Source: Corallium rubrum
Taxonomy: Eukaryota; Cnidaria; Anthozoa; Scleralcyonacea; Coralliidae
Direction: 5' to 3'
Length of the DNA: 64,000 nt
Assembly: GCA_964035015.1 (NCBI GenBank)
Contig: OZ036008.1
Location: forward strand, 8,148,504-8,212,503
Shown here: positions 17,707-58,440 of the stretch, in pieces
Position numbering within the stretch: the stretch's first letter is position 1
How the letters are laid out: every line of letters begins with the position of its first letter
Notes under the pieces: model-generated
Database searches by the model: none
What the model was told of the DNA's origin: nothing
What the model saw: only the letters and a program-made list of their open reading frames with translations
Made by a program: the position numbers and the translations under genes

Positions 17707-17763
<57 letters not shown>

Positions 17764-17785
17764 TAGATATATAGATATATATAGA

Positions 17786-27604: not shown

Positions 27605-27653
27605 ATTGCCAACATTTCCAAGATATGTTATCTGAAACTCACTGGCAGAGAAT

Positions 27654-29198
27654 ATGAATCCCGTTGAACAAGGATATGATGACCAAAGATTTCAGAATGT
27701 CGTCGACGATAATTTCCACTGTCCAATTTGTATGAACGTTTTAAAAGAACCAGTTCAGTGCCGTCGTAACGAGCATTACTATTGCACGCCGTGTATTACA
27801 AGGCACTTGAGAGAGACATCTCAAACTTGCCCGATATGTATGGACGTACTGACGGTGGAAACACTGAAAGAACCTTCAAGAATGGTCACTAACTGTTTGT
27901 CTCCATTGAAGATCAACTGTGACTTCGCCTCCAGAGGTTGTTGTCAGGTCGTCGAGCTGGGACTGCTGAAAACTCATGTCAAAAACTGTGAGTTTTCTCC
28001 AGTGGCTTGTTCGATTGATGGTTGTTTGATGATGGTAAACAAACGAGATGTACAGCATCACGAAACGCAAGTCTGCGAATTTCGAAAGCTAAAGTGTGAC
28101 GACTGTGGTAAGGAGGTGCAGTACAAGAAATACAAAACACACGGCTGTGTTTTGAGCAAGGAAATGGATAAAATGAAGATGAATCAAGCTGAGATAAAAG
28201 ATCAACTGGGTGCCCAAGAAGACATGATGAAAGACATGAGAGGAATGATGGCTGAAATGAAAGACGAAATTATGAAATTAACCAAGCAAGTCACGGTTGG
28301 TTTACCAAGAGGAGATATCATCATGGCGGGGGGGTATGATGGTACTTCCCAGCTGAATTCCGCAGAAATATTTAGTTGGCGGACAAGAACCTGGGTACCA
28401 CTGCCACCAATGAAACAACGTCGTTCATCGCCATCTTCGTTCATCTGTCAGGACGGAATTATTGTTCATGGAGGGTTCAATGGCAAGTCTAGCACCGATT
28501 GCATGGAAGGAATAAACATGAATCAGGAACATAAAGAATGGTTTGCCTACCCTGGTAAATTACCGTTCAAGTGCAGTGGACACGCGACTGTTGTTCACCA
28601 GGAGAGTCTGATAGTGACAGGAGGATATGATGGCAACAAAGGTAAAGTCTCTGACGGTATTTATAAAGTTTTAATCAAACCTTCTTGCACAATCGAGTCA
28701 GTATGTCGTATGAAACAACCGAGATGTAGGCATGGGGCAGTAGTTTACAATGGTAAGGTTTTGATTGCTGGAGGGAAGACAACTGGCAACTACGAAGATA
28801 GTGTTGCCAGTGTTGTCTTGTACGATGTGAATAAAAATAAGATTAAAGAAATGCCGCCATTACCTTTTGAAGTTTGTAATATGGCGACTGTTTGTCATGG
28901 CGATAGCTTAGTTATGATGGGGGGACAGAATAAGAAAGGTGAGGCTCTTAACAAGGTTGTTATGTACAATATTGAAACAGGAGAATGTCAAATGTTACCG
29001 AATATGAATGTTAAGAGAGCAGGATGTGTGGCTATTGTTACTGGCAATACAATTGTAGTGATGGGAGGGGGGGATGAGAAAAGAAAATATCTTAATTCAG
29101 TAGAATGTTTCAAGTTTGATGATCAGGTATGGGAAGAACTTCCTCCCATGACAGAACCCAGGTCAGCTGCAACTGCTGTAATTAAACCCATTGTCTAA
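27654..29198 (+). CDS. RING / NRDP1-type zinc finger / coiled-coil / Kelch protein, copy 2
   Basis: 514 residues in one exon. RING C3HC4 uses C23, C26, C36, H41, C44, C47, C59 and C62. Residues 65-165 resemble RNF41/NRDP1 (LKEPSRMV, LKINCDFASRGC, Cys/His pairs C89/C96/H108/C112, C119/C124/H136/C141, C148/C151/H163/C165). Residues 168-212 are a Met/Glu/Lys-rich coiled coil. Six Kelch blades follow, with GG pairs at 226, 273, 323, 373, 423 and 471. In known families the RING recruits E2 and the Kelch propeller binds substrate, so a ubiquitin ligase with a Kelch recognition domain is inferred. NRDP1 itself has a different C-terminal domain and TRAFs have MATH, so the combination is unusual. No signal peptide or membrane segment; cytosolic. 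The start is the first ATG, conserved in all copies. Confidence 0.92.
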   Translation: MNPVEQGYDDQRFQNVVDDNFHCPICMNVLKEPVQCRRNEHYYCTPCITRHLRETSQTCPICMDVLTVETLKEPSRMVTNCLSPLKINCDFASRGCCQVVELGLLKTHVKNCEFSPVACSIDGCLMMVNKRDVQHHETQVCEFRKLKCDDCGKEVQYKKYKTHGCVLSKEMDKMKMNQAEIKDQLGAQEDMMKDMRGMMAEMKDEIMKLTKQVTVGLPRGDIIMAGGYDGTSQLNSAEIFSWRTRTWVPLPPMKQRRSSPSSFICQDGIIVHGGFNGKSSTDCMEGINMNQEHKEWFAYPGKLPFKCSGHATVVHQESLIVTGGYDGNKGKVSDGIYKVLIKPSCTIESVCRMKQPRCRHGAVVYNGKVLIAGGKTTGNYEDSVASVVLYDVNKNKIKEMPPLPFEVCNMATVCHGDSLVMMGGQNKKGEALNKVVMYNIETGECQMLPNMNVKRAGCVAIVTGNTIVVMGGGDEKRKYLNSVECFKFDDQVWEELPPMTEPRSAATAVIKPIV

Positions 29199-32100
29199 AG
29201 TGTTGTTAAATTTATTAAAAGGGGACTACAGTCTGTTTTGTGCATGACCATAGGATTGTCAACATTTTGATTTGAGTTCTTAGAAAGTTTGATAATATTT
29301 TTGATAAATATTAATAACATTTTGATAAAAGTCTTGGCCAAAAGACTTCCACAGATTATCTGATTTCCAGCAGCATAAAAATCAAGCAACATTTATACAG
29401 CAACTTCTAGTGTGGTATGAAGTGTCATGAAAACAGCTCCTGCAGGATTTTTGTGCTAAAGTTGTTTTTTTTTAGTTGACTGGATGTCCAACTATCAGAA
29501 AATGATGGGGTGCAAATTTTCAACCTTTCAACATACAGGGGGGTTGAGAGCTTGGAAAATTTGAACTGCTTTTTCTGATAGTCTGACACCTAGTCAACTC
29601 ATAAAAGAAATAAAAATCAACTTTATCATGAAAATCCTACAGGAACTGTTTTCATGACACTTCATACCACACTATTAGGGCTAGGATCCAGGTCAAGGAA
29701 AGGTTTTTCAGTCACTCCTATTAGCCATGTCTCTGACCCCTTGACCCCCCTGTGTATTGAAAGCTTGAAAATTTGAACCCCATCATTTTCCAATAGTTTA
29801 ACATCTAGTCAATTCAAAAAAGAAGAAAAAATCAACTTTAACATGCAAAATCCTATGGGATTACAGTTATACCACACTATTCCTGATCTGTCTTCAGGTT
29901 GCTTTCTTCTTTAAATTTTCTCCATCTCAGAAAAGTTTCAAATCAATATACCTTAGAGGCCTCTGGTGGCATAATAGTGTTTCCTGCTACTACCAATGCA
30001 AGTGGTTGTATCTGATGAATTGGCCATCTTGTTTAACAAACCAGATCAACATGAACTATTGGCCACAGAGAATGAGAATGAGCATATTGAATTTTCCGTA
30101 GAGTCCCCCAACAACAAAAACAAAGAACATGCGGATAACAGACTGTAGTCCCCCTTTCAGAAAATTGCGATAGACAGGGATGTAGAAAGCAGGGTCTTTG
30201 CAAGGATAAGCTCAGAAATTTCTATATTTAGCAATGTTGTTTCTATACTTTATCACTAAAGCAGTACCTCGTTATTATTCATAAATGTTTTATGAATATT
30301 CATTATTTCTACCAAAAAATAATTACTACACACTTTTTATAATGCAAACTTGTAGTTTTCAATAGATCTCAGTTGATACATAGTTAATAGAAAATAATCA
30401 TGGTTTGGAAACTGAGCAAAGTTCAAAGCAGTTAACAATTGACCTATGATTCATTTTGAAAGGTACCTGTAGATGCACAAATGCCTTTGTTTTAGCTTCA
30501 TGAATATTTAAACAGCAAGGTGGAGTGATTCATCTCAAACTTTGCTATTGGATGATTGCTTCATTATACAGAAAACACAATATGTTCAGTAACCGTGAAG
30601 GTGCACAAATTTTCATAAACCTGAACAAAAACATAAAACAGTGACTTTTGTCGAACTTCCAAACCATGGTTATTTTCTATTAACTATGGTTGATAACATA
30701 ATATTTAAATCCCATACAGTTTGGACACAAATATTGTATTTGATTTATCCAATTCACACATCTAATTGTTCAGATTTATCAACAATTTTAAAGATATAAG
30801 CTTTTTAAGCTGAGAAAATCGATTAGAACATTTATGTAAATCAGGATGAATTTTTATCTGATTTACAACACCTGATTAAACATTCGTTTCTTTTGAATTT
30901 CTTCATGAATTATTAATGAATTGGATAAAACATTTACTGACTCAACTCAATGTTTAATCCATTCCTGCCTGAGCTGGCCAAAAATGGCCTCTATTGTTTT
31001 ACGCCATCTAATGCCAGGCAATTTTACTTCTCAAATGGACAACCTTCAAAAATCTTAAGCAGCAATGGGTTAAAGTATTTTCCTTAGGCCTATGGAAGTG
31101 AAGTATCAGTTTACCATCACCCACCCACATGAGACTTTTCATTATTTCATTTTTTTCATTATTTGTCTGATTTTTATGGCAAAGTGTCTGATAAAGTTGT
31201 TTTGTGCAGAAATTTTGCAAGAATCAAGGTCTTGATCTGATATTTGAGCTATTTAGTATCGTCAACTACGGCATTTAATCATGTATCACTATGGAGAAGG
31301 AATGTATCACTTTCTTCCAAATGATTCAGAAGAAATATTAGTGAATATTACCTACTTGACACACAACTAAAATAATGAATAATGAAAAAAAAGAAGCCTC
31401 GTTGGCTCTTGAAAATTTTGGTGATGGTAAACTGACACCTTAATTCCATTTATAGGCCTTATAGAGTTTATAAACTATGTAGTTTTTTTTAATATTTATG
31501 GCAAGAGATTGAAATCCTTGTTTGACCCATTACTCTCTGGCTAGGCTAAAGGGTTTTCCTTTCACAATTAAATTATCTGCCATAAGGGCAGGCATGGATC
31601 CCTTTTAAAACTTTTTCACCTCTGAGGCTAGCTGAGGGGTCTGTTTGTGGTGAGTAAATTGCCTGATAAAATGGCTATTTGGGCCATCCCAGGCAGGAAT
31701 GGGTTAAACATGAAAGCAAAGCATCTGTAGTTAATTAAATTTGATGCATGTTACGTGAAGGAAATTCATTGTAAATATATATAATCATTTGACATTTGAA
31801 ATGACTTACAGTTTTGTAAATCATTCTAGATTATGTAGAAGTAGTATTAATGGGTTAAATATGAAACCAAAGCATCTGTAGTTAGAGCTGTGCCCGATTA
31901 ATCGACTCTTTTTCGGCAATCGATTAATCGTTAACAACAATCGAATCATTGACAAAAGTCAACAGCATGATACTAAAATGAGTTTTTGTTAAAAAGTTGT
32001 GGAAATATGAGATGGCATTGTGACATTCGCCCTGTTAAAAACAGCTATATTGCGTATCAAATGTCGAATGCGACTTGTTTTGATTCTTATCTCTAAGGAA

Positions 32101-32832: not shown

Positions 32833-34409
32833 ATTGTGTAAGGTATTCATGGGTTTCGAGTGCAATTTGGAAAAAAACAACATGCACGAGTGAGTTTTTC
32901 AAAGACTATCAAAATTGCACAAGTCTGAAGAACGAGTGCTATTTGACGTCTTTGAAAAACTCAGGAGGAGGTATCGTTTTAACGAAAAAAACATGCTATT
33001 TACTAATAATATACATGAAAATATGGTCAAGTGTACTTACATTACAGTGGACTGCAAAGTTTGGTCCGCGCGGGGGACACGTTCCCCGCGCAATTTTTTC
33101 TTGTCGAGTATATACGAGTCGTATATTTGGTTGTTTAAAACGCTTCGCTTCTACCACTACTCGAAAAAGTTTACTTAAAGCACTAAGAATCTTCTAGTTT
33201 TCTTGCAGGTACTTTACTTGACAATGAGAAAGAATAATTAGCTTCAAATTTGAACGAATTGTTCTCCACTATAATTCAACATTATGGCCGCCATCTTTGT
33301 CAATTTTGTGCGGGAAAAGCCTACGTACGAGGTTGGAAAATACCATGTGTCAAAATCCGCCGTGGAACGTGATTGGCTCTTCTCAGTTTTAATTGTTTTT
33401 GATTGGTTGATTGGCTTTAAAATTTGCGTTGTATTTCCTAAAACTATAAAGAATGAATTTCAAGTTTCCCACCCACGCTTTTATATTGTTACCAAGATAT
33501 CAATCAACTAGACTGCTGATTTTTAGACGAATTGTAATAATTAGAACACCATTTGGAGAAAAAGGAGATTGAAATAAATCTTATTAAAAACCTACTTTTT
33601 ATGCAAAAGAGAATGGCAGTTTTACTGCTTGAAATTTAATAAAAAAAGTTAAAAGGGATTCACCACACAAGACTGACCAATGTTTTGTAATTTTCAATGT
33701 TTGCTCAACCAGGCGGTACTGGTTATGTTAATTACTGCCTTGGCAATAGAAGTGTTCCTAAAATATTGTCGCAATTCGTTTGCTCTGCCTGACCAATAGG
33801 CCATTCAGGCGCGCAACTAGGGGTTGGAGGGGGTTGGGGTGGTGTTGCAACCCCTGCCCTTTTTAACCCCTGCCCTTTTTGTGAGACCTCTAATACTAGG
33901 TTAGACATTAGATAAACAGATAATTAATCGTCTGTTGTAGTACGCAATACAATTCTCCGCAAACCTGGCGAGACTCAGAGGCTTCTAGCAGTATGATAAA
34001 TTTTAAATAATGCGAGACTAAAATAAAAATTTCCGCAACCGAAAATACGAGAAAAGCGTCCTCAAAATGCAGGAAATGCCGTTTCAGAGACCCAAAATTC
34101 AAAAATCGTTCGGGGGGGGGGGGGGGGGGCATGCCCCCGGACCCCCCGTAGTCCCAAACTGTTTAGAAACTGCCCTCGAATTTTCTAGTCCTGCCATTTG
34201 TACCAGAATGCTTTGCCAGTATTCTAGGGTTTCGGCTAAAAGGGATCACTCAAAGGGAGCCGTCCAGCCCTTTCGTTGCCTTTCCAAAATATGTCGTGAA
34301 ATACGTTTTTTGTAAAAGCTAGCAGGTAAACCATATTTCTGATTAGTCTGTTCGGTTTTATGTTGTGGTTAGGGTATCAAAAAGATTGCTAAAATCTCGA
34401 GACTCACTG

Positions 34410-35064
34410 TTGTGTTTCTCTGGTTCAATATCTGAACCACCTGGAATCCAAATTAGAGACGAAATTGTTGAAAGAGTCAATACCTTTAAGTTACTACGGA
34501 AAACAAATCGACTATTATACCACCTAAGAGAGTGCAGGAAATCAAACCTTCCCACGGAAGTAGGGCTAACATTATACAAATCTAAAGTAAGACCAATTGT
34601 AGAATATACCTCCCCCGTTTGGGGTGGTCTTCCAAGTTGCCTTGAAAACGAGATCGAGCGGATACAGTCAAGAAGTCTTCGTATTCTTGCCGGTCTGGAA
34701 AAGAATAGCTTACCTGAACTTAGCAGCAGAAGAGAGACTGCCACTAAACGCGAAATTGAGAGGATAGTAAATGATCTAAGCCATCCCTGTCGTAGCTTAA
34801 TTCCTGATGCAATCAATAATACATACAATTTAAGAGCGAGCAATGCAAATGGACGGACCTACATATTTTCAGGAACTGAAAGACATAAAAGATCCTTTCT
34901 TGCACGTGCATACAAATTTTGTAACTTGGCCTTCATTTTTATCTTGTATAATATATATATATTGTTTTTATTCTTGTAAATGTTTTAACCAACATTTTAT
35001 ATTATGTTATACTCATTTCACTATATATTATAATCCAAGATGGATGATTAAAGATTATTATTAA
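34410..35064 (+). mobile_element. 5'-truncated LINE, reverse transcriptase C-terminal region
   Basis: An insertion relative to E1. It encodes in one frame RDEIVERVNTFKLL followed directly by RKTNRLLYHLRECRKSNL and LYKSKVRPIVEYTSPVW, the well-known C-terminal segment of CR1/L2/Jockey-type reverse transcriptases. The usual linker between FKLL and the next helix is missing, suggesting an internal deletion. Coding ends at 34979; the tail ends GATTATTATTAAA. Not functional. Confidence 0.8.
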
Positions 35065-35794
35065 ACTTGACGACAAATTTGGAAACAACAAATTTGGCGA
35101 TATAATTTGGAAAAGCCGCGAAAGGACTGGACAGGTCCTTTTGAGTTATCCCTTTTAGACGAAACCCTAGAATACTGGCAAAGCATTCTGGTAGTTGTAG
35201 TCAACCCAACGCCATTCACGTCAACGTGCAAATGCTCTATAGATCGTTTTCATTCACGTGATCGGTGTCCCCATTAGGGTGGTGAAACAATACGAAATAT
35301 TTGAATAAGAATAGAGCTAAATTCCCATAGGATAATGATAGTACTCCAATATGGCCGCCGTGACGTCAGATGAAAACGATCTATTGATCTATTCATTTGA
35401 TGAAGTTCGTTGGACAACTTCCTGCTTTGAATTGGATTGGTGTTAGAGTAAGTCATATTTCTTATTGGTTGTTCAAAAACCACAAACCAATTAAATTCAA
35501 AGCAGGAAAGGTCCAACAAATTTGGTCAACTGAATTATCAGACAGAACAACAGAACTGCGCCACGACGTGCAGTAGAGCTACTTCAAATTAACCCCCCCA
35601 CACACACAGCAGGACATGATTTTCCCAGCAGGACATAGCAGCTGGCTTTAATGAATAGTTACAGTAAAAACCCGCTAACACGAACCTACATTTCACCAAA
35701 TCAGCCTGGGATAGGTTCTCATATTCTTATATTATATTATACTATATATAAATTATTAATTTCAGCCTGTAGTGCAATGACACCATGAACAATA

Positions 35795-35804
35795 CCTTAA
35801 AAGG
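35795..35804 (+). promoter_or_regulatory. CArG box upstream of Kelch gene 3
   Basis: CCTTAAAAGG, 423 bp before the start codon, or about 160 bp after removing the proposed intron. Confidence 0.45.
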
Positions 35805-35920
35805 ATCGGGGTTACGGGTAATTTTTACCGCTAGAATTAAATAGGCGTTGGTTTCAATTCGAACAAGAACACTTCGACGTCTCACTCTGTTGCTGCGGTG
35901 TCGTTAACATTTCCGAAAAG

Positions 35921-36183
35921 GTAAATTACTAATTCTTAGATCATTAGAGTAATGTGAAAGAATGTTGCATTCAGTGCTGTGTATTGAAAATTAACTTGAG
36001 AGGATGGTGTAGTTCCAAGATTTAACAAACAGACGACTTTCGAGTGCTGAAGTGAAAGCGTTCACAAGGGAAAGCCCTTCGCAAGGGCTTGTGTTGCAGG
36101 ATGTGGAAGAGTTGTTGGTCTTAACGTCTTGTATTTCATTGTTTTGTAATCACCCTTGTGTTTTTACATCAATATTGTTGTAG
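35921..36183 (+). other. Probable 5'UTR intron of Kelch gene 3
   Basis: Donor CGAAAAG/GTAAAT and acceptor ATTGTTGTAG/ATTGCC, 263 nt, matching the candidate before gene 2 in position and sequence. Confidence 0.5.
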
Positions 36184-36226
36184 ATTGCCAACATTTCCAA
36201 GATATGTTATCTGAAACTCAGAGAAG

Positions 36227-37768
36227 ATGAATCCCGTTGAACAAGGATACGAGGACGAGAGATTTCAGAATTTCGTCGACGATAATTTCCACTGTCCAAT
36301 TTGTATGAACGTTTTAAAAGAACCAGTTCAGTGCCGTCGTCACGAGCATTACTATTGCACGCCGTGTATAACAAGGCACTTGAGAGAGACATCTCAAAGA
36401 TGCCCGTTGTGCATGGAGGTTCTGACGGTGGAAACACTGAAAGAACCTTCAAGAATGGTCAGTAATTATTTGTACCCATTGAAGATCAACTGTGACTTCG
36501 CTTCCAGAGGCTGTCGTCATGTCGTCGAGCTGGGACTGCTGAAAACTCATGTCAAAAACTGTGAGTTTTCTCCAGTGGCTTGTTCGATTGATGGCTGTTT
36601 GATGATGGTAAACAAACGAGATGTACAGCATCACGAAACGCAAGTCTGTGAATTTCGAAAGCTAAAGTGTGATGACTGTGGTGAGGAGGTGCAGTACAAG
36701 AAATACAACACACACGGCTGTGTTTTGAGCAAGGAAATGGCTAAAATAAAGATGAATCAAGCTGAGATGAAAGATCAACTGGGTGGCCAAGAAGACATGA
36801 TGAAAGAGATGAGAGGAATGATGGCTGAAATGAAAGACGAAATTATGAAATTAACCAAGCCAGTCACGGTTGGTTTACCAAGAGGAGATATCATCGTGGC
36901 GGGGGGGTATGATGGTACTTCCTGCCTGAATTCCGCAGAAATATTTAGTTGGCGGACAAGAACCTGGGTACCACTGCCACCAATGAAACAACGTCGTTCA
37001 ACGCCATCTTCGTTCATCTGTCAGGACGGAATTATTGTTAATGGAGGGTTCAATGGCAAGTCTAGCACTGATTGCATGGAAGGAATAAACATGAATCAGG
37101 AAGATAAAGAATGGTTTGCCTACCCTGCGAAATTACCGTTCAAGTGCAATGGACACGTGACTGTTGTTCATCAGGAGAGTCTGATAGTGACAGGAGGATA
37201 TGATGACAAAGGTAAAGCCTCTGACGGTATTTATAAAGTTTTAATCAAACCTCCTTACACAATCGAGTCAGTATGTCGTATGAAACAACCGAGATGTAAT
37301 CATGGGGCAGTAGTTTACAATAATGAGGTTTTGATTGCTGGAGGGACGACAACTAACAGCCACGCAGATAGTGTTGCCAGTGTTGTCTTGTACGATGTGA
37401 ATAAAAATAAGATTAAAGAAATGCCGCCATTACCTTTTGAAGTGTGTGGTATGGCAACTGTTTGTCATGGTGATAGCTTAGTTGTTATGGGAGGTTGGGA
37501 TAAGAAACGTGAGGTTCTTAACAAGGTTGTTATGTACAATATTGAAACAGGAGAATGTCGAATGTTACCGAATATGAATGTTAAGAGAGTAGGATGTGTG
37601 GCTATTGTTACTGGCAATACAATTGTAGTGATGGGAGGATTGGATGAGAAAGGAAAACGTCTTAATTCAGTAGAATGTTTCAAGTTTGATCATGAGGTAT
37701 GGGAAGAACTTCCTCCCATGACAGAACCCAGGGGATTTGCAACTGCTGTAGTTAAACCCATTGTCTAA
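36227..37768 (+). CDS. RING / NRDP1-type zinc finger / coiled-coil / Kelch protein, copy 3
   Basis: 513 residues, intact, one shorter than copy 2 because blade 3 reads GGYDDKGK instead of GGYDGNKGK. All RING and zinc-finger Cys/His are kept. The RING region is the most diverged of the four: EDERFQNF, RRHEHYYC, QRCPLCME. Paralog-specific residues at propeller positions include C after GGYDGTS (blade 1), CN after QPR (blade 4 strand), G after EVC, L after the sixth GG, and GF after the final EPR. The coiled coil has P for Q just before the propeller (TKPVTVGL). Presumed substrate-recognising ubiquitin ligase, by family inference only. Confidence 0.92.
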   Translation: MNPVEQGYEDERFQNFVDDNFHCPICMNVLKEPVQCRRHEHYYCTPCITRHLRETSQRCPLCMEVLTVETLKEPSRMVSNYLYPLKINCDFASRGCRHVVELGLLKTHVKNCEFSPVACSIDGCLMMVNKRDVQHHETQVCEFRKLKCDDCGEEVQYKKYNTHGCVLSKEMAKIKMNQAEMKDQLGGQEDMMKEMRGMMAEMKDEIMKLTKPVTVGLPRGDIIVAGGYDGTSCLNSAEIFSWRTRTWVPLPPMKQRRSTPSSFICQDGIIVNGGFNGKSSTDCMEGINMNQEDKEWFAYPAKLPFKCNGHVTVVHQESLIVTGGYDDKGKASDGIYKVLIKPPYTIESVCRMKQPRCNHGAVVYNNEVLIAGGTTTNSHADSVASVVLYDVNKNKIKEMPPLPFEVCGMATVCHGDSLVVMGGWDKKREVLNKVVMYNIETGECRMLPNMNVKRVGCVAIVTGNTIVVMGGLDEKGKRLNSVECFKFDHEVWEELPPMTEPRGFATAVVKPIV

Positions 37769-43103: not shown

Positions 43104-44639
43104 ACATATTTTGGAAAAAGGAAAATTCGAGTGTAGAATATATACATTAAGTCTTTAAATGTATGCTGTAACATGCTTGCAACACTGCTGTAACAACGTG
43201 TTGACATATGTGAACAACATTGATAAATGAACATTATTCATCATTGTTTCAACAAGTTGTTACTGCTTGATGAAACAACAACCGTTGTTCATGCATGTTG
43301 TAACAACCGAAGAACGTGTTGATACATCAACCATGTTCACCATTGTTGTAACATTGTTGTTCATCGTTGTTATTTCGTCATGCTGTTACAACACGTTGTA
43401 TCATGTGCGAACAACGTTGTTGGCTATAAAAAATGTGCTGTTGGAACAACTTGTTCATGACTGTTGATTTATCCGTGAACAAGTTGTTCGAACCATAAGT
43501 GAACAATAATAATAATAATAAACTTTCTTTCAGTGTCTAGATTCTTTAGCATTGACAGCTAATTGGGGACACTATTTACCTAAATTAGTTACATAAAATG
43601 TTTCCTAACATTAGATACAAAGAAGAAAAGCCGCGACCTGCGTTGCGTTCACCTTGAGAGAGTACCAAGATACGAATGTTCTTCCTTCAAGCTCTCCTTC
43701 AACCGAGGTACGAAGAACAGCCATCGTTTCTTCAAACTCTCCAAGATACGAAAAAGAAAGGAATTACGTCGTCTTCTTGCCTTCTTCGAAGTTGAAATAA
43801 GGTCCTTGCCTCTTTCTTCTTCTTCGATCAGAGCCGCCTTCCTTCCTTGAACAAACAGCCTGCTCGCAGGCTAGAGAACAAACAGAATTTGTTGGCAACT
43901 TGTTCACGGCGAGCAGCACAACATTGTTCACGCCTGTTGACAACCGTGAACAAGTTGTGCGTTTTTACGCGTGTATTTGGACTGGTCCGGGAGTCCCACA
44001 CAAAAGTTAAAATTATAAGCATACGACCACCAAAAAGATAAGGTAGGCAATTTGTACTTTTGTACATGGCTTCTTGGTCACTCTTGTAACATATTCTGAA
44101 ATAATCCCTTCGTAATTTTCATGATTTTTTTTTAAAACACAAATGAATAGTGGAGTCTTACTTAGTCTTCACTGTCTGGTTGTTGTTGCCACGGTTAGTT
44201 CCCACTTCTCTAGACTTTCTCAAAGTCCTTTAAAATAAGTTTTCAAACATTTTTGACCTTTCGACATTTACTTCTCTTGCAATGTTTACTCAAATCTCGT
44301 ATCCAGACCCGCGCGTTCCCAAAGTCACAATTTTTATACTCTGCAAATTCACGCATGCGCAAACGTTTGGCAGCGACGCAGATCAAGACATATCAAGATA
44401 TCGAGGCATATCAAAATGAAAATCCTTGTCACAGACCATAGTACATGCCTACTCTTTTACAGACAAAGATTTTGCTTGTTTTTGATTTTCTGGAAAAAAC
44501 TAGGGAAAATTTTTCTTAACTTTTCCGTTAACCAAATTTTGGTGAATCTCTTTCATGAAGTTCTTGTAATGTCTGGAATGGAAAGATTAAGAAGTGCAAT
44601 GAATATTAACAACAGAGGAAATACAACTAATTGATTTTC

Positions 44640-47600: not shown

Positions 47601-48150
47601 ATTCAATTTCATGTACAATTCAATTCCATGTACAATTCAATTTCATGTACAATTCAATTTCATGTACAATTCAATTTCGTGTACAATTCAATTTCGTGTA
47701 CAATTCAATTTCGTGTACAATTCAATTTCGTGTACAATTCAATTTCGTGTACAATTCAATTTCATGTGAAATTGAATTGTACACGAAATTGAATTGTATG
47801 TACAATTCAATTTCATGTACAATTCAATTTCATGTACAATTCAATTTCATGTACAATTCAATTTCGTGTACAATTCAATTTCGTGTACAATTCAATTTCG
47901 TGTACAATTCAATTTCGTGTACAATTCAATTTCGTGTACAATTCAATTTCATGTACAATTCAATTTCGTGTACAATTCAATTTCATGTATAATTCAATTT
48001 CATGTACACTTCAATTTCGTGTACAATTCAATTTCATGTATAATTCAATTTCGTGTACAATTCAATTTCATGTATAATTCAATTTCATGTACAATTCAAT
48101 TTCGTGTACAATTTAATTTCGTGTACAATTCAATTTCATGTACAACTCAT
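44640..48150. repeat. Expanded 17-bp satellite with 733-bp higher-order repeat
   Basis: Same TTCAATTTCATGTACAA unit and same intron as 8266-9840, but about 3.5 kb. Units recur exactly at 733 bp (for example 45794, 46527, 47260 and 45988, 46721, 47454), giving at least three higher-order copies. Eight inverted islands of about two units (reading GAAATTGAATTGTACACG) lie near 45125, 45627, 45960, 46360, 46692, 47093, 47426 and 47766, alternating about 333 and 400 bp apart inside the higher-order part. Open frames here are repeat artefacts. Confidence 0.93.
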
Positions 48151-48982
48151 ATCCTCATTATAATAATTAGGCATTGTGGTATATTTTGCGGGCTAAAATG
48201 GAGAATTCAGTTGATCTGATCCTACCAGTTTTAACAGTTCTGAATCACTATTGGTTTGTTGTTTACGGAATTGTATACTTTTCTTGTCAATACTTTGAAG
48301 CAAACATTGTGTTGATGACAAAGGTTATGTAGTTATGTAAATATGTGTTGCAATGAAATACACGACGACGCGAAGGTAGGCACTGTTCAAGATACTGTTT
48401 ACTGTATACTCTCTTTGATTTTCTTCCAAATGCCCACTAAAATTATTACAATAGTAATACAGTTGATGTTCTTGGGCATAATTTTTTTTTTCCCTTCTCT
48501 TCTTCGGCTCGGGCTAAAATGAGCCTGAGTCGGGCCATAACATATATTTGTGCTTGCAAACATCAACTCTATTGTTATAAACAAACCTCCATTTATCCCC
48601 CAACATCTCGACATTCTCCTTGTGTTTTGTAACATCCTCTTGAATGAGAGCCAATTCCGCTCTAATCAAATGATGTAAGAAAACTACCATGAACATATGA
48701 TGACAAGTTGTTGGCTCAACTGTTTTAATTAAAAGAATTTTTTTTCTGATTCAATTTTCCGTTTCAACATTGCAAAGTTTTATCGTCTAAAAGCTATGAT
48801 ATCGGTTTCAATACGGACACTGCGATCATTTTAACAATACTGGGGCGTTTTGGAAGTCGTTAAACTAGCTTCAAATATCAAATATAATAGTTAACCGTGA
48901 CTTCTTTAAATTGTAAAACTTATCTTGCTTTTTGACCACCGTCGTCGTCCTAGCATCTTAAAGTCCCTAGTACTGTTTCGTG

Positions 48983-49479: not shown

Positions 49480-49666
49480 AATGGAATCTATTTGTTTAAT
49501 ACAATACAAAAATTTAAAAGGTTTTTATTGAAACTCGTGCTGGATTTTGGAGCATTTTGAGTTGACGTGACCTTTGAGTTGAGGCGCATGTCCATGTGTC
49601 TATCGTCTAATAGATCATGGCCAACAACCAATGAAAACACACATAGCAACCAGGGTACTGTATAAT

Positions 49667-49833
49667 AAGGTTTGATATACTGCCGAAACAGAGAACGTAG
49701 TCTTCTAACGTTCCGAGTGAAGGCCTTTCGTCAGAGAGAAATGTCATGCAGAGAGACAGCTTTCTTTCTGACGAAGGGCCTTCGCTCGAAACGTTAGACT
49801 CCTACGTTCTGTTTCGGCAGTATATCTAACCCT
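49667..49833. repeat. Foldback with hammerhead-like core (copy of 11243-11413)
   Basis: Same inverted arms and the same CTGACGA / GAAA order (CTGACGA at 49768-49774). The minus-strand copy has ACGTTCCGAG where block A has ACGTTTCGAG, changing its GAAA to GGAA, so only one strand keeps the core. Confidence 0.6.
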
Positions 49834-51878
49834 ACTATATTTCGATTGTTGTTTCTACACTGCCTACGTAGCACGCTACTTTTATTTCAATATGCTTACA
49901 CATACTGTTAACTGTTGTCACCGTGCATTTTGCAATGGTCAATTTATTATGTGGTGTAGCGTCTCACAGTTAGTAGGCAATGCATTGTACTGCTCTCCTG
50001 TGACACCAGAAAATACTTAGAACTTGTAGCAAGTTCTGAGTATTATCTTCTAGTGTTTAGTGACCGCGGTCAAATAGAGTTTTTCTCTGCTTATCCGGTG
50101 TAGTCCAGTAAATCCGTGGTTTAACATCAAACAAATTGGAACAGAAATAGTTTAGCTTTTCCAGTTCCATGATGCAGTCAGAAATAACATACCAAAAGTC
50201 CGGAAAATCCACCTAGTGAAAAGTCAGTAACAAAAATCAAGTTTTTCTTAAAATTTACACAAATACACTATTCTCTAAAAATAGAGAAATTTTGAGTTCC
50301 GTTTTAGCAAATATCACCTATGTCGTTTGTAAGTTCTTAAAAAATTATATGAAGGGCATTTAAGTGAGTAATATGACTTTCCAGGCCCCTTTTAGTTATT
50401 AATGTTAAAAAATGTGGAAAATGCTGCAAAATGGTGTTTTTAGCAGGTTTAATAACCTCCTGTAACTTTAAATGGACCTGGAAAACCGTACTACTTGCTT
50501 AAATGTCCTTCATATAGTTTTCTGAGCACTTTCTAACTACATAAGTGATATTTTCTAAAACGGAACTTGAAATTTCTCTCTTTTTAGAGAATAGTGTATT
50601 TGTATGTGAATTTTAAGAAAAACTTGATTTTTGTTAAGTTTCCACCAGGTGGATTTTCCGGGACTTTTGGTATGTTATTTCTAACTGCATTATGGTACTA
50701 AAAAAGCAAAAATAAGAGCCTACATCAAACAAATTGCAACAGAAATGGTTTTAAAGTACATAAGCGTAGAGTTTTGTTTTCGTCTAGGGGAGCTGAAGTG
50801 CTGAACAGGGCCTTTCTAAGAAGTTTTCCGTGGGGGGCGTTTACCAAAAGGGACTCTTCTAGGGGGTCTGGAAATTTTTGAAATTTTGAGTTTTGGAAAT
50901 GCCATTTCCTGCATTCTGAGGGGTAATTTTTAAGAACACTGAAGGTCATGAAATGTCATAAAAACTAGTTAAAATACAACACATTTCAACAATTTTTCGA
51001 TGTTGTGTTTATTGGGTTGACTTATCACTGTATATGGGTGCTTTTGGTTGACAGGAATGAGGCTGTAACAGTTACTTTAGCCTAACGAGTAACCTATAAC
51101 TTGTGAATGGTGATTGATGAGCCATTTGCTGCAAAATTTCTGGGGGGGAGCTCAGCCCCCTCATTGAGATTTCTCCGGGGGCTAAAGCCCTTCAGCTCCC
51201 CCCCCCCCCCCCCCACCCCCCCATACTCTACGCATGTTAAAGTAGATTGACTGAACTATGATTCGTCATTGCAACGATTCCATTCTTACCTATCTTTTTG
51301 TAACAGTCTCTCTTTCAGCTCTGTCAGTTCCCCCTCGTCTTCTACTAGCTTTTTTTGCCAAGACTTGACGCAGTCCCTTGCCTCGTTCAATTGTAGTCTC
51401 AGTTCGTCATTAATCTTCATTTCATTTTCCAGATTTTCTTTTGTGTCCTGTAATTCGGCGTCTTTCTTTTGAAATTCCTCAACAGTTTGCAAGCTGACGT
51501 CGACAAAAGATTTCTTTTGTAATAACTTTCTTTCATTCGTCGTTTCCATAACTTTTAATTTTTCGTTTTCTAGACTGTTTGTCAAAGCTTCTATCTGCTC
51601 ATTCATATTCTTTTTATCTTCATTTAAACTACTAACTTTATTTACTAAATTCTCTATTTCGGTTCTTGTTTCCTTGATTTCCTTTGAACATTTCTCGGAC
51701 TCTTTATTTCTCTCTTCAACTGCCTGATTTTTATCGTACAACTCTTGTTCTAATTCAGTTTGTTTTTCTTCTAACTGCTTAACGGTCGCTTCAGTTTCGC
51801 TTCGAATTTTTTGAAGTTCTTTTAAATCTTCTTCGAACTTTTCTTTCTCCGCATCAACGCTTGTAAGTTCTACTTTTA

Positions 51879-52822
51879 ATTCTGGTAAGAAATATTATTG
51901 CCCAGCATACTGCTTTAAACAAAACCATAACACAAAATAATTTTGAAAAAATTTTTACTAACGTTTCGTTACTACACGTAACATCATCAGAGTGATAAAT
52001 ATACATACATGAAGGTGACTTAAATAGCTTAACTAGTTACATAAATAGAAAGTGATAAGGTGACAGACAAGGTGACAGAAAAGGTGATGTAAGACAAATG
52101 AATTGTCAAACTGGTGAAGAGACGCCACAGCGTAAAGAAAAAATAAATATAAATAAATAAATAAAAAAAAATAAAAAATCTAAAAGAGTGCTAAGGGAAA
52201 TGATCTAATGTTAGCGTTAAGAGAGGGTTTAAACTTAGAAATTAACAAGCTTTCTCGAAGAAGAACATCTAATTGGTTAGAACCTGACGATATAATTGAG
52301 AAGTCATCGAAAGAAACATCGTGTCCAGTTTTTATCTTAGTTTTTATGTTTCTTTCGATGACTTCTCAATTATATCGTCAGGTTCTAACCAATTAGATGT
52401 TCTTCTTCGAGAAAGCTTGTTAATTTCTAAGTTTAAACCCTCTCTTAACGCTAACATTAGATCATTTCCCTTAGCACTCTTTTAGATTTTTTATTTTTTT
52501 TTATTTATTTATTTATATTTATTTTTTCTTTACGCTGTGGCGTCTCTTCACCAGTTTGACAATTCATTTGTCTTACATCACCTTTTCTGTCACCTTGTCT
52601 GTCACCTTATCACTTTCTATTTATGTAACTAGTTAAGCTATTTAAGTCACCTTCATGTATGTATATTTATCACTCTGATGATGTTACGTGTAGTAACGAA
52701 ACGTTAGTAAAAATTTTTTCAAAATTATTTTGTGTTATGGTTTTGTTTAAAGCAGTATGCTGGGCAATAATATTTCTTACCAGAATTAGATTTCCGCCTG
52801 GTTCATCCATTGCGACAATTTC
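51879..52822. mobile_element. Foldback insertion with a hammerhead-like core, Penelope-like
   Basis: Near-perfect arms (about 51879-52330 and 52340-52790) start AATTCTGGTAAGAAATATTA, followed on the right by about 32 extra bases. TTCTACTTTTAA stands on both sides as a 12-bp target duplication, and block A has the empty site. Plus-strand core: CTGATGA 52675-52681, stem II GTTAC/GTAAC, GAAA 52698-52701, stem III AC/GT with GTTA loop, GTA ending at 52709. Hammerheads at Penelope-like element ends are known; assignment to that class is inference, as no reverse transcriptase is present. Confidence 0.65.
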
Positions 52823-53924
52823 TACTTTTAACTCAGAAATAACCTCGTTTTTCTTTTTCGTTTTTTCTACGCTATCCGTCGACTCTTTTTTTCTTAATTT
52901 TTCACAATCTGTTAACTCGGCAGTAAGTTTCTTATTCTTAATCACTAACTCTTGAGTTTTGTTTAATAATTCTTCTATCTCCAACTGTTTTTCTTGAACT
53001 TCACTTGCCCAGTTTCTCTCGCCGTTCACTGCCTCTATTTCTAACACCCTTAACTGTTCAATAACGCGGTTTCGCTCGGCTTTGTGTTTTTGTCTCGCCT
53101 CAGAAAGGCATCGCCGTAGCCTCGCGTTATCTTTCTTCAAATATTCACTGTTCTCATCGCAAGCAACCATTTCCAAATCTTCCAAACCCGTCTCAGATTT
53201 ATCTATAGATTCACTCCCATCCAGCCATTCGTCCATTTTACTCGTAATCTCATTGGTTTTCACAAAAGGGAAACACAAGTTCTCGTTATTGCAAATCAAT
53301 TTCTTAGAAATCTGCCCATTTTCCATCTCGTTAAGACAAGAAGATTCCTCGTTCGGTTTTTCGTCTCTATGGCTCCGTTCGGAAACTACATTAGTAAACG
53401 TTTCCTGACTGTTATTCTGCGGTCTTAGTTCTAACTCCTTCTTTGATATGAATTCCTTCAGTTCTTCGATATTGGCTTCTAAAACAGCCTTGCTTTGTTC
53501 GAGAGCTTCAAGGTCCATTCCGTTAGGCATTCCGCGATCTCCCGAACTGGCCTGTTCCAAAATTAAGGTCAACGATCTTACTTGTGTTTCAGCTTCTTTT
53601 ATTAGTTTCCTGTAAGTGAACTCGTCTTCGTCTAATGCTTCGACGTTGCTTTTGGTAATTTTCGTTTCTCTCCTTTCATTTGCTACGCAAGCACTTATCG
53701 TTGGCTTGCTATTTTTATTTAAATTTGTCTGTGTGAACAGTTTAAACTGATCGATGCTAGAATCATTCACATTGGCCTGAAATTTATCCGTTGTAATATC
53801 AACCTCCTCTTTCGTGTCAGTCATTGTGTAAAATATTACTATTTAAAACAAATGAAGAAAATCGTTATTTGATTACATTTTTTTTCAAGTTTAAGTTCAT
53901 TTATTTCACACTATAAAGTTGATG

Positions 53925-54225
53925 GTGATAGTGGTGATGATGATGATGATGATGATAATGACAATGATGACGATAATGACAATGATGACGATAATGATGA
54001 CAATGATAATGATCATGATAATGACAATGATGATAATGATGATCATATGATGACGATAATGATGACGACGATAATAATGATGACAATGATAATAATGATG
54101 ATAATGGTGATGATGATGATGATGATAATGATGACAATAAAAATATGATGATGATAATCATTGACAATGATGATGATGACGACGATGATGATGATAATCA
54201 TGACAATGATGATAATCATTTATTT
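53925..54225. repeat. GATGAT/GACAATGAT compound microsatellite (A')
   Basis: Copy of the block A array, a little shorter in places. It lies in the proposed 5'UTR intron of the second coiled-coil copy and is followed by the same LINE-like debris (54226-54480). Confidence 0.95.
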
Positions 54226-55734
54226 ATTTATTTATTTATTTATAGACAATATTTATACACGGTACAATTTCACCTGTTAAATATATACAAAATTGATCTT
54301 CCAACCGGCCGTGCTCACACAATTATAAAATAAAATTATTAAAATATTTAAGAAGATAATAACTACATAACAGTGAAGGCAAGGCAAGAATTAAAAGTTA
54401 AAATTAGACAGTCGTATTGTCCATATTGTGTATATAATGCTTATAAATGGACTCCACCCAGCTATGATTTCAATATGTTAATTTGTTTCATTTCATGATA
54501 ATCATGACAATGATTATAATGACGTCATGATAATTATGACAATGATTATAATGACGACGACGATGATGTTCTTGACGATGATGATGATGAGTATCGGCAT
54601 CGCAAACTTGAATCGCGCGCACGTGCATTTATTTACATTCTCGATAATCTGCCAAACGCGGCACGAGATGTGAACACGCAAGGCGCGCAAAGCGCGGGGA
54701 GTACATCTCGCGTCCTCCCTAACATTCTTGCGATTGAGACCTCGACTTTGTACTTTATTTTGTCCTTCGCTACAAGTTTAGTTGCAAAATGTCAGTTCTT
54801 TAAATTCAAGTCTGACAGAAGTCCCAAACGACAAACACCAACTCACAAGTCGAGTCCATTTTGATGGTTGAGTCTTGAATTAAATTGAGGCAAGAACGCG
54901 TCAAGATGTAAATCACGAAATCTTGCGAGCATTACTCTGTGGTCGTGTCGCTGAGCAGCCTGTGTGTATGGTCGCCAACCCTGTTTCGGACCTAATGATG
55001 CTGTAGTGAGATGTAGTGAGAAAGTGCAATTTAAAAACAATCAATGTAGCACTAAAAATGCCTGTTGTATAATTCGTTTATGTTCACTAATCACTATGCT
55101 TATGGCTTGGATATATAAAATGCTTTGATCCGCAACGGTATTCATTGTTGCTCTAGAAAATTTCATATGTTATGGATGCTTAGTATAACTATATTTGAGG
55201 ACATATCATGTACGTTTTATATGTTTATCATTTGACCTATAAGCATATACCATCCGGTTCACACAAATCTCACTGCAGATTGGTCGCGCGTCCCAAAGAC
55301 AGAAATGCTAAGTTTATCGTTTTAACTTACCTTTCGGTGTTTCCAATCTGAATCTTGAACGATTCTTGATCTATCATTAAAATGGCTTCGCTCCGAAGAG
55401 ACGCGAAAATTACAGATTGGTGTTCGATTACTTTGAACGCCTGTTGCGCGTAGATTAATTAAACTTATCCCTTTGAGTCGCATCGTTGGTGTGGGACAAT
55501 TTTATCCTTTTTACTCTGTCTAACGCCGTGGAGACAATTTTTCTAGTCAAGGGGGAGAAGTCTAACCATTACAATCACTATACTTATCGCTATGGATGGT
55601 AAGGTACCAAGGTACGGACATAATTAGAAGTTCAGTCCCGGAGGAAAGTGGAAACCTGCGACTCATGTTTGTCTGTCCTTTAATTATGTATATATTTATT
55701 TATAACACTGTTGACAAAAAACATAATAAATAAC

Positions 55735-55737
55735 TAA

Positions 55738-55800
<63 letters not shown>

Positions 55801-55801
55801 A
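55735..55801. repeat. (AAAT)n microsatellite
   Basis: About 16 AAAT units against about 6 in block A (near 16186). Immediately right, A' joins CGATGGA to GGGCTCTTAT, skipping the 1.7 kb present in A. Confidence 0.95.
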
Positions 55802-55949
55802 TGCGTGGAGGAACGTTCGGGCCCACAGAACACAGTCTTCGACAACGATGGAGGGCTCTTATAATAAGAATTGTATTCTTATATATATTGTAAGGCGCAT
55901 TTGAAAACCTTAAGTTGAATTTGCGCGGTATAAATAAATGTTATTATTA

Positions 55950-56898
55950 TTGAAGCACTGCTATGCTTACACATACCGTTAACTGTAGTCATAGTCCATT
56001 ATACAACGGTCAATGTATTAGGTGGTGTAGACTGTAGTGTCTCACACTTATAAGCAATTGCTTTCCTGTGCAGAAAATACCGCCGCGCATGACGGCCTGG
56101 TCATTGCAGCAAAAAGCTCGGCACAGACATGGCACAGATGTTTACCAGCTAGGCCACGGTGAGTACTTATGTAGCGTGTTTTTGGGCCATAGTGAAAAGA
56201 CTTTCTTCTCTGATTCTGGAACAACTTTATTGACAAACGAGATTGAACAGCTGAACGTTACAAACATCTTCTCTAGCTACATCGCACCTTCGGTTCTCAC
56301 ATCTCACCACTCTCACTTCTAACCTATAAATACATCGAGTTGCTGTGTTAATATATCTTACATTTCAGCGACAGTATACAAACATCTACGTCAATGTACT
56401 ACGTATAAAACTGATCTGGAAACCTAGAGATTAAACATTTTAACGCCTTAGTAAAGTTAAGTTATAATAGCCGCTACACATATAGTCTTATAGATAGTTC
56501 ACTAATTGTTCAGAATAGGTGAAGTCAATTACTTCTTCTGTGGCTAAGCAGATAGGGTGCTTGTAGGCGAAGATAAGACCGAGGATAAGACACAGTCCAG
56601 TCACTACAAACATTCTTAAAACAAGTCAGCAGTAAAAAAAGTATTGCATTGCTTCATAACTTCCTTTTTTACCTTAAAAGGGCTGGGATCACGACCTTCA
56701 CAAATCACGAGACTTTCTCCGAAGTATCAAGTAGATAAATCTAGGTGTTGGCTGACTCAGATCAAAAGCGAAAGAAAGCCACTCAGTCAGCAAAGCAGTG
56801 TTTGTGTATTGTTTATAGCTGCAACTGTGAACAACGAAACCAATCTTCTTTAATAGTCCAAACAAAACCATGGTCCAAACCTAGTAATCGCCTTTAAG
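55950..56898 (+). promoter_or_regulatory. 5' flank of Kelch gene 4
   Basis: Homologous to the gene 1 flank, with several small deletions that break the frame open there at 18213-18512. CArG box at 56672-56681, 217 bp before the ATG. The donor-like GCCACG/GTGAGT is kept near 56158. No TATA box is obvious. Confidence 0.5.
56672..56681 (+). promoter_or_regulatory. CArG box upstream of Kelch gene 4
   Basis: CCTTAAAAGG, identical to the sites before genes 1-3, in the same local context as gene 1 (TTTTTTACCTTAAAAGGGCT). Confidence 0.5.
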
Positions 56899-58440
56899 AT
56901 GAATCATGTTGAACAAGGATATGACGACCAGAGATTTCAGAATGTCGTCGACGATAATTTCCACTGTCCAATTTGTATGAACGTTTTAAAAGAACCAGTT
57001 CAGTGCCGTCGTAACGAGCATTACTATTGCACGCCGTGTATTACAAGGCACTTGAGAGAGACATCTCAAACTTGCCCGATGTGCATGGAGGCTCTGACGG
57101 TGGAAACACTGAAAGAACCTTCAAGAATGGTCAGTAATTATTTGTCCCCATTGAAGATCAACTGTGACTTCGCTTCCAGAGGTTGTCGTCAGGTCGTTGA
57201 GCTGGGACTCCTGAAAACTCATGTCAAAAACTGTGAGTTTTCTCCAGTGGCTTGTTCGATTGATGGCTGTTTGATGATGGTAAACAAACGAGATGTACAG
57301 CATCACGAAACGCAAGTCTGTGAATTTCGAAAGCTGAAGTGTGACGACTGTGGTGAGGAGGTGCAGTACAAGAAATACAAAACACACGGCTGTGTTTTGA
57401 GCAAGGAAATGGATAAAATAAAGATGAATCAAGCTGAGATGAAAGATCAACTGGGTGGCCAAGAAGACATGATGAAAGAGATCAGAGGAATGATGGCTGA
57501 AATGAAAGACGAAATTATGAAATTAACCAAGCAAGTGACGGTTGATTTACCAAGAGGAGATATCATCGTGGCGGGGGGGTATGATGGTACTTCCCGACTG
57601 AATTCCGCAGAAATATTTAGTTGGCGGACAAGAACCTGGGTACCACTGCCACCAATGAAACAACGTCGTTCAACGCCATCTTCGTTCATCTGTCAGGACG
57701 GAATTATTGTTAATGGAGGGTACAGTGGCAAGTCTAGAACTGATTGCATGGAAAGAATAAACATGAATCAGGAAGATAAAGAATGGTTTGCCTACCCTGC
57801 TCAATTACCGTTCAAGTGCAGTGGACACGCGACTGTTGTTCATCAGGAGAGTCTGATAGTGACAGGAGGATATGATGACAAAGGTAAAGTCTCTGACGGT
57901 ATTTATAAAGTTTTAATCAAACCTCCTTACACGCCCGAGTCAGTATGTCGTATGAAACAACCGAGATGTTGTCATGGGACAGTAGTTTACAATGATATGG
58001 TTTTGATTGCTGGAGGGACGACAACTAACAGCTACAAAGATAGTGTCGCCAGTGTTGTCTTGTACGATGTGAATAAAAATAAGATTAAAGAAATGCCGGC
58101 ATTACCTTTTGAAGTGTGTTCTATGGCAACTGTTTGTCATGGCGATAGCTTAGTTATGATGGGAGGACAGGATAAGAAAGGTGAGGTTCTTAACAAGGTT
58201 GTTATGTACAATATTGAAACAGGAGAATGTCAAATGTTACCAAATATGAATGTTAAGAGAGCAGCATGTGTGGCTATTGTTACTGGCAATACAATTGTAG
58301 TGATGGGTGGGGCAGGTGAGAAAGGAAAATTTCTTAATTCAGTAGAATGTTTCAGGTTTGATCATCAGGTATGGGAAGAACTTCCTCCCATGACAGAACC
58401 CAGGGCATTTGCAACTGCTGTAGTTAAACCCATTGTCTAA
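56899..58440 (+). CDS. RING / NRDP1-type zinc finger / coiled-coil / Kelch protein, copy 4
   Basis: 513 residues, intact, closest in flanking DNA to copy 1 and so the likely functional counterpart in the second 38-kb unit. RING reads CPICMNVL, CTPC, CPMC; zinc-finger Cys/His are all kept. Paralog-specific residues in the propeller: R after GGYDGTS, YSGKSR in blade 2, CC after QPR, S after EVC, A after the sixth GG (then G for D), AF after the final EPR. It also has MNHVEQ instead of MNPVEQ. A TTAA-type MITE sits 12 bp after the stop codon, inside the presumed 3'UTR. Function inferred as for copy 2. Confidence 0.92.
   Translation: MNHVEQGYDDQRFQNVVDDNFHCPICMNVLKEPVQCRRNEHYYCTPCITRHLRETSQTCPMCMEALTVETLKEPSRMVSNYLSPLKINCDFASRGCRQVVELGLLKTHVKNCEFSPVACSIDGCLMMVNKRDVQHHETQVCEFRKLKCDDCGEEVQYKKYKTHGCVLSKEMDKIKMNQAEMKDQLGGQEDMMKEIRGMMAEMKDEIMKLTKQVTVDLPRGDIIVAGGYDGTSRLNSAEIFSWRTRTWVPLPPMKQRRSTPSSFICQDGIIVNGGYSGKSRTDCMERINMNQEDKEWFAYPAQLPFKCSGHATVVHQESLIVTGGYDDKGKVSDGIYKVLIKPPYTPESVCRMKQPRCCHGTVVYNDMVLIAGGTTTNSYKDSVASVVLYDVNKNKIKEMPALPFEVCSMATVCHGDSLVMMGGQDKKGEVLNKVVMYNIETGECQMLPNMNVKRAACVAIVTGNTIVVMGGAGEKGKFLNSVECFRFDHQVWEELPPMTEPRAFATAVVKPIV

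Follow-up and report, generated by a model that had tools for sequence, protein, structure and literature searches.

Why should gene copies that are nearly identical along most of their length differ from each other at equivalent places in every blade of the propeller that they encode? This question is raised by a stretch of 64,000 nucleotides of Corallium rubrum (NCBI GenBank assembly GCA_964035015.1, contig OZ036008.1, positions 8,148,504 to 8,212,503 of the forward strand), hereafter the window. Within eukaryote-like DNA it carries, on the plus strand, four copies of one single-exon gene that together span positions 19088–58440, one of them being frameshifted. From the N- to the C-terminus the gene encodes a RING finger, a TRAF-type zinc finger, a coiled-coil-like stalk and a six-blade kelch propeller. 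In the four window copies positive selection falls on codons that correspond by register to the ligand pocket of KEAP1, and the same positions are hypervariable at the protein level in the relatives of these genes. It is therefore likely, in our view, that the genes belong to a probably anthozoan family, expanded in tandem, of single-chain RING-type E3 ligases whose pocket is diversified by positive selection and serves as a germline recognition repertoire.

Pocket slots and selection in the window copies

In order that the sites should not be chosen from the data, site classes were taken from KEAP1, the sequence used for the register having been verified against PDB. Two of the four classes are counted forwards from GG, at +1 and at +6 (just ahead of L-x-S), and two are counted backwards from the next GG, at −15 and −14, where strand A starts; over six blades they give 24 codon slots. 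Sixteen KEAP1 pocket residues named in excerpts of PMC12266349 and PMC6891428 were tabulated, eight of them described there as interacting with the NRF2 peptide and eight as inhibitor, dimethyl fumarate or docking-site contacts. Fifteen of the sixteen (seven of the eight NRF2-interacting residues) lie within the four slot classes, as a preliminary description of the locus had proposed in matching the variable places to KEAP1 contacts; Ser363 and Ser602 were counted by register, the scripted distance being distorted by an extra GG or by the chain end. The sixteenth residue, Asn382, lies three after GG, outside the classes. The recurrence of positions 258, 308, 358, 408, 456 and 504 once per blade, which had also been pointed out there, holds exactly. 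Five of the blades have the position 15 residues ahead of their next GG, a spacing shared with KEAP1; the sixth lies on the closing strand, with no GG downstream, and was assigned by register.

The residues that had been reported as variable in copies 1/2/3/4 (copy 2 numbering) are all confirmed by the alignment: 233 Y/Q/C/R, 259 T/S/T/T, 308 N/S/N/S, 358–359 RG/CR/CN/CC, 409 Y/N/G/S, 425 W/Q/W/Q, 456–457 VG/AG/VG/AA, 473 R/G/L/A and 504–505 GY/SA/GF/AF. The list was, however, incomplete, since the same classes also contain variable slots at 275, 280, 375, 380, 431 and 479. Altogether, replacements are found at 18 of the 24 slots against 34 of the 265 other usable propeller codons (Fisher odds ratio 20, p = 1.5e-10), and codons with synonymous changes only number 0 at the slots and 13 elsewhere in the propeller. 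With the six blades superimposed by register, variation is seen at −15 in 4/6 and at −14 in 5/6 of them, but in 0/6 at −20 to −16 and at −13. Chance clustering of the variable sites was considered and rejected.

A codon model with separate nonsynonymous to synonymous rate ratios (omega) for the N-terminus, the slots and the rest of the propeller was fitted under three topologies and gave omega of 8.0–9.0 at the slots, 0.61–0.66 in the rest of the propeller and 0.57–0.64 in the N-terminus, where it is significantly below 1 (p = 0.025). A slot omega of 1 is rejected by the likelihood ratio test with p of 6e-16 to 6e-19 over the three topologies. The three intact copies alone yield a slot omega of 7.9 (p = 7e-13), and a propeller-only fit with its own branch lengths yields 10.9–11.9 at the slots and 0.77–0.83 in the rest (p from 2e-16 to 4e-19, three topologies). 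Both kinds of slot contribute, with omega of 8.8 for the strand-A slots alone and 9.5 for the BC-loop slots alone, and the signal is stronger after residue 340 (omega 13.3, p = 6e-20). In eight shift controls, in which the slots were slid by −4 to +4 codons, omega ranged from 0.21 to 1.35 and was never significantly above 1; at −1 it was marginally below 1 (p = 0.049). Omega above 1 in the window copies is thus confined to what the KEAP1 register would make ligand-contact sites, and the earlier selection reading, which expected dN/dS at these sites to exceed that of the rest of the propeller, is supported.

The slots have accumulated at least 39 nucleotide changes against a neutral expectation of 8.1, distributed as 14, 19 and 6 over codon positions 1, 2 and 3 (33 of 39 at positions 1–2), whereas the codons one to three away from them carry 0.12–0.44 changes per codon against 0.34 expected. 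A mutation hotspot is unlikely because the slot changes are mostly at codon positions 1–2 and the neighbouring codons are near or below the neutral level. Propeller dN is 0.042–0.069 and K in the non-coding flanks of the gene copies is 0.027–0.073; in two other duplicated segments K is 0.015 and 0.023.

The copies are mosaic. Up to codon 195, 9 of the 11 informative sites group copies 1+2 against 3+4, while from codon 301 on, slots included, 9 of 12 group copies 1+3 against 2+4, and in the 5' flank copy 1 resembles copy 4 and copy 2 resembles copy 3, as judged by eye. The mosaic probably arose by gene conversion or unequal exchange. Because of this mosaic structure the selection tests were repeated over all topologies and with three copies.

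Variability of the slots in relatives

A first protein search returned 1174 matches, the best of them 60% identical, and the 120 matches listed were all unnamed. Two more searches, started from members of this first list, returned 1701 and 622 matches with 120 listed each; named among these listed matches were seven and six proteins, all from the octocoral Paramuricea clavata and labelled RING finger 151-like, NRDP1, PDZRN3 or PDZRN3-like and, in one case, 'kinase'. Many of the relatives are recorded on long contigs, and at least 20 among the matches listed were assigned to one presumed contig of 1,659,711 bases. At the nucleotide level, 12 viral-contig and 44 genome-contig pattern matches were obtained, none of which was confirmed by tblastn.

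From the best 120 of the 1174 matches, 39 disjoint pairs were drawn at an identity of at least 75%, pairs with fewer than 380 shared aligned positions being excluded. In these pairs 474 of 897 slot cells differ, compared with 1468 of 10237 in the rest of the propeller and 456 of 6004 in the N-terminus; the slot difference rate is the highest in 39 of the 39 pairs, a number to which we give no p-value weight owing to shared ancestry. General loop variability was tried as an explanation and rejected, as the CD and AB turns, which form the loops of the opposite face, are about as variable as the remaining positions in close pairs of identity at least 0.75 (0.155 and 0.132 against 0.143). In the whole, more distant set the entropy of the CD turns is somewhat raised at 2.46 bits, with 1.72 bits in the rest and 3.2 bits at the slots.

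The pattern is repeated across hundreds of relatives, as protein-level hypervariability outside the locus. For the 20 paralogues assigned to the one presumed contig, slots have an entropy of 2.07 bits against 0.44 in the rest, and in the window-like matches P0001–P0063 (63 of 120) it is 3.08 against 1.53. Two larger sets of octocoral-type proteins, groups A and B, are search results and not clades from a tree: group A comprises the 106 newly listed matches of the second search, with 14 already listed ones excluded, and group B comprises 117 proteins, namely 109 newly listed matches of the third search and eight of the 11 already listed. Group A has 2.44 bits at the slots against 0.52 in the rest, the slots making up 17 of the 24 most variable sites, and group B has 2.21 against 0.65. 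The slot combinations are all distinct, 106 of 106 in group A and 117 of 117 in group B. At the 17 most variable slots the median identity over the 5565 pairs of group A is 0.19, compared with 0.82 outside the slots, and in its 15 closest pairs slot identity ranges from 0.06 to 0.65. Among pairs with at least 90% non-slot identity the median slot identity is 0.32 in group B (48 pairs) and 0.33 in the window-like set (seven pairs), and the pair P0167/P0202 is 0.93 identical outside the slots and 0.06 at them. When the slots are slid by one codon in the relatives, entropy drops to 0.9–1.9 bits. The residues that occupy the slots are also biased: Tyr is enriched 6.3-fold, Trp 3.2-fold, Phe 2.6-fold and Arg 1.9-fold in group A, with Pro depleted, and Phe 5.1-fold, Arg 4.5-fold and Tyr 3.1-fold in group B.

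Architecture and layout of the locus

The domain architecture is observed by profile match. Pfam zf-C3HC4_2 is above its cutoff in all three intact copies, and the C3HC4-type RING has all its zinc ligands (C23, C26, C36, H41, C44, C47, C59 and C62) present, each at least 90% conserved in 123 aligned sequences. Residue 61, at the end of the RING, reads K/I/L/M across the copies, with three or more nucleotide changes, and is the most changed codon outside the propeller. The TRAF-type zinc finger scores near the Pfam cutoff of 27 (26.3, 27.3 and 28.2 bits in copies 2, 3 and 4), and C96, H108, C112, C119, C124 and H136 of this region are invariant in the 123 sequences. The propeller has six GG registers and a C-terminal closing strand, matches Kelch_1 with E of 9e-38 to 9e-43 across the three intact copies and is related in sequence to solved kelch propellers, KEAP1 included. 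The coordinates are collected in Table 1. Four copies had earlier been placed within 27654–58440; their number stands, but copy 1 falls outside, and its frame is disrupted by the insertion of one base near 19927, as judged from the alignment and the local sequence context.

Table 1. Features of the RING–kelch gene copies in the window (slot residues in copy 2 numbering)
Feature	Position	Strand	Basis or remark
Copy 1	19088..20633	+	Open reading frames 19088–19933 and 19848–20633 in different frames; alignment with the other copies
Copy 2	27654..29198	+	Intact single-exon open reading frame, 514 amino acids
Copy 3	36227..37768	+	Intact single-exon open reading frame, 513 amino acids
Copy 4	56899..58440	+	Intact single-exon open reading frame, 513 amino acids
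RING finger, copy 3 residues 23–62	36293..36412	+	Pfam zf-C3HC4_2 31.3 bits, cutoff 27
TRAF-type zinc finger, copy 3 residues 108–163	36548..36715	+	Pfam 27.3 bits, cutoff 27
Stalk, zinc finger to propeller, copy 3 residues 166–212	36722..36862	+	Coiled-coil-like, judged by eye
Six-blade kelch propeller, copy 3 residues 220–509	36884..37753	+	Kelch_1 E 8.6e-43
Blade 1 BC loop, slots 228 and 233 (copy 2)	28335..28352	+	KEAP1 register
Strand-A start, slots 258/259 (copy 2)	28425..28430	+	KEAP1 register
Blade 2 BC loop, slots 275 and 280 (copy 2)	28476..28493	+	KEAP1 register
Strand-A start, slots 308/309 (copy 2)	28575..28580	+	KEAP1 register
Blade 3 BC loop, slots 325 and 331 (copy 2)	28626..28646	+	Neither slot varies among the four copies, which differ by a one-codon indel
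Strand-A start, slots 358/359 (copy 2)	28725..28730	+	KEAP1 register
Blade 4 BC loop, slots 375 and 380 (copy 2)	28776..28796	+	KEAP1 register
Strand-A start, slots 408/409 (copy 2)	28875..28880	+	KEAP1 register
Blade 5 BC loop, slots 425 and 431 (copy 2)	28926..28946	+	KEAP1 register
Strand-A start, slots 456/457 (copy 2)	29019..29024	+	KEAP1 register
Blade 6 BC loop, slots 473 and 479 (copy 2)	29070..29090	+	KEAP1 register
Closing-strand strand-A start, slots 504/505 (copy 2)	29163..29168	+	KEAP1 register
Repeat unit of copy 1	11066..20645	.	Matches 49491–58452 (copy 4 unit): three blocks, 91–96% (self-BLAST)
Repeat unit of copy 2	23589..31851	.	Matches 35063–43116 (copy 3 unit): two blocks, order swapped, 91% and 97% (self-BLAST)

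The gene copies are embedded in larger duplicated blocks that are about 90–97% alike by self-BLAST. A 17-base minisatellite forms two long arrays (about 8118–9900 and 44600–48200), open in several frames, at matching places in two of the duplicated blocks. Inverted repeats at 24413–25252 and 41055–41905, with 218-nucleotide arms about 97% alike, occur in both duplicated blocks and are possibly a mobile element. A coiled-coil-like gene on the minus strand is also present twice (12826–14415 and, split, 51286–51894 and 52670–53842), and its second copy contains a perfect 443-nucleotide palindrome (51877–52319 and 52346–52788, 26-nucleotide spacer), which is either a fold-back rearrangement or an assembly artefact. 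A perfect 180-nucleotide inverted repeat (17253–17432 and 17520–17699) lies near a TA-rich microsatellite. Next to the array, a minus-strand open reading frame (2701–3408) encodes an RNF34/RFFL-type SAP domain and belongs to another ubiquitin-ligase-like gene, and the open reading frames 34347–34979 and 62672–63064 resemble, by eye, reverse-transcriptase or LINE remnants.

Possible function, rival explanations and related systems

The data suggest the following mode of action. A conserved RING, TRAF-type zinc finger and stalk would carry the kelch propeller, the scaffold of which is kept while some 24 residues of a KEAP1-like pocket, four per blade with half of them at the strand-A start and half in the BC loop, may be repeatedly replaced; duplication together with gene conversion would spread and reshuffle the copies. 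The RING would recruit a charged E2, the stalk would form oligomers, and the pocket would bind through the top face a ligand that is then ubiquitinated. As a whole the repertoire may bind changing ligands (proteins of viruses, bacteria or symbionts, or effectors) and tag them with ubiquitin. Turnover of the pocket residues on a stable scaffold and RING implies ligands that change or that are not the same for every copy, and foreign or fast-evolving proteins fit best in this role. Ligase activity, oligomerisation, pocket geometry, intracellular location, ligand class and an arms race are all things that we infer from sequence.

Several points weigh against a repertoire diversified in this way. 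The selection tests rest on only four closely related DNA copies, one of them frameshifted, with p-values that are chi-square asymptotics, and these copies are recombinant, yet the three topologies and the three-copy test agree. The list of variable residues was already known when the KEAP1 classes were chosen, and in blades with longer loops the slot before L-x-S was placed by eye. The signal is weaker at the slots before residue 340 (omega 4.2, p = 0.0013), and the omega below 1 in the rest of the propeller misses significance (p = 0.07), so that some relaxation there is possible. The relatives were compared as proteins only, and what they display is hypervariability, positive selection being read from the window; their pairs and groups share ancestry, partly overlap and are not independent trials. 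Entropy exceeds 2 bits at 17 of the 24 slots in group A (four have 0.8–1.5 bits, one has 1.9 and two are gapped) and at 14 of 24 in group B, where Trp is not enriched (0.6), and some of the closest group A pairs retain a slot identity of 0.59–0.65. There are also high-entropy sites outside the slots in octocoral-type relatives (256, 278, 279, 377, 476, 477 and 501 in copy 3 numbering), which are perhaps the pocket rim.

The main rival is that each duplicated ligase has a pocket fitted to a different endogenous degron, with no external antagonist involved. Selection on a substrate-like pocket would fit such specialisation, and KLHL paralogues do differ in pocket and substrate. However, pairs at least 90% alike outside the slots already differ at most hypervariable slots and no slot set is repeated within either group, a turnover that appears faster than expected for stable endogenous partners, and we regard this explanation as unlikely, if worth keeping in view. 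Still less probable is that the repertoire serves not defence but the sensing of allogeneic or of algal or bacterial symbiont proteins. Tandem-duplicated coral receptor families are tied to immunity and symbiosis by the authors of PMC10236652, but the domains are arranged as in an intracellular ligase, and no signal peptide or membrane anchor was noticed in the translations, which were inspected by eye with no predictor applied.

Local hypermutation or templated copying that places changes at the slots without selection might be suspected from the mosaic of the copies (5' flanks 14|23, N-terminus mostly 12|34, propeller mostly 13|24) and from several slot codons that differ at two or three bases. 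The codon-position bias of the changes and the near-neutral or lower level in neighbouring codons speak against it, as does the layout of the slots, which recur once in each blade as isolated codons or pairs flanked by codons that do not vary, and we give it very little credence. Relaxed constraint in decaying duplicates, for which the frameshift of copy 1 and an omega of only 0.6–0.7 outside the slots might be cited, is the least credible of all, because it cannot produce an omega of 8–9, the three intact copies suffice for the slot signal, and the relatives retain the scaffold.

Hundreds of anthozoan single-chain RING ligases could constitute a germline-encoded intracellular receptor system in which the kelch pocket is paratope-like and one and the same protein both recognises foreign proteins and has them destroyed, a reading that we advance only tentatively and would not yet bet on. 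Its diversity would come from tandem duplication, gene conversion and positive selection. It counts about 14–24 hypervariable contact positions, rich in aromatic residues and Arg, on a fixed scaffold. The variable contact residues of group A, rich in Tyr, Trp, Phe and Arg, may in this respect be likened to antibody paratopes, in which such residues are likewise abundant; unlike antibodies, the window genes are germline-encoded and join the pocket to a putative ligase effector within a single polypeptide.

Expanded ligase families in which the recognition domain is under positive selection are already known. PMC3719486 describes plant F-box/kelch E3 receptors as an expanded family with a positively selected kelch substrate domain and a conserved ligase-recruiting domain. 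The coral genes differ in that no F-box is found among their Pfam matches, RING and propeller stand in one chain, the host is an animal and the selected sites are in a periodic pocket register. The work behind the statement on the plant family is reportedly that of Schumann in 2011. Fish finTRIM, btr and trim35 and the B30.2 domain of TRIM5 likewise exemplify RING ligase families with positively selected hypervariable sites in the recognition domain (PMC3137616); the window genes vary instead in a kelch propeller, and with no B30.2 among the Pfam matches of the copies and no B-box among those at E up to 0.01, the TRAF-type finger standing in its place, they do not fit the TRIM plan. Caenorhabditis F-box and MATH proteins, according to PMC5392922, form large families with selected sites in substrate-binding domains and a link to pathogen response, but these are adapters with other folds. 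BTB-kelch (KLHL) adapters such as KEAP1 share a sequence-related propeller with the same pocket register, from which the window genes are set apart by the lack of BTB and BACK among their Pfam matches. KEAP1 itself binds a fixed partner. NRDP1/RNF41, RNF151 and PDZRN3, the names given to the Paramuricea relatives, also have a RING followed by a TRAF/SIAH-like zinc finger, with their own C-terminal domains where the window genes have kelch.

No description of a RING–TRAF zinc finger–kelch family was found in the literature searched, although the search was not exhaustive. The word 'kelch' is absent from the main text of PMC12005167, in which E3 ligase orthogroups are among the families differing between the corals compared, and from the main text of PMC10236652. 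Selected coral orthogroups with RING/B-box or TRAF-type fingers are reported in the excerpted part of PMC9145168, where this architecture is not among them. From the known families the present one differs in its architecture, its host and the sharp mapping of its variable sites to a kelch pocket.

The mapping makes a sharp test possible, since a swap of slots should change the ligand. The natural variants also offer a record of how much re-specification a kelch pocket allows, a point of interest for engineered degraders. Recognition repertoires outside vertebrates have usually been sought in surface lectins, immunoglobulin-like or NLR families. In the family described here the varying part of a ligase repertoire appears to be a kelch propeller, a domain otherwise associated mainly with fixed partners, and the residues that vary can be pinpointed almost codon by codon.

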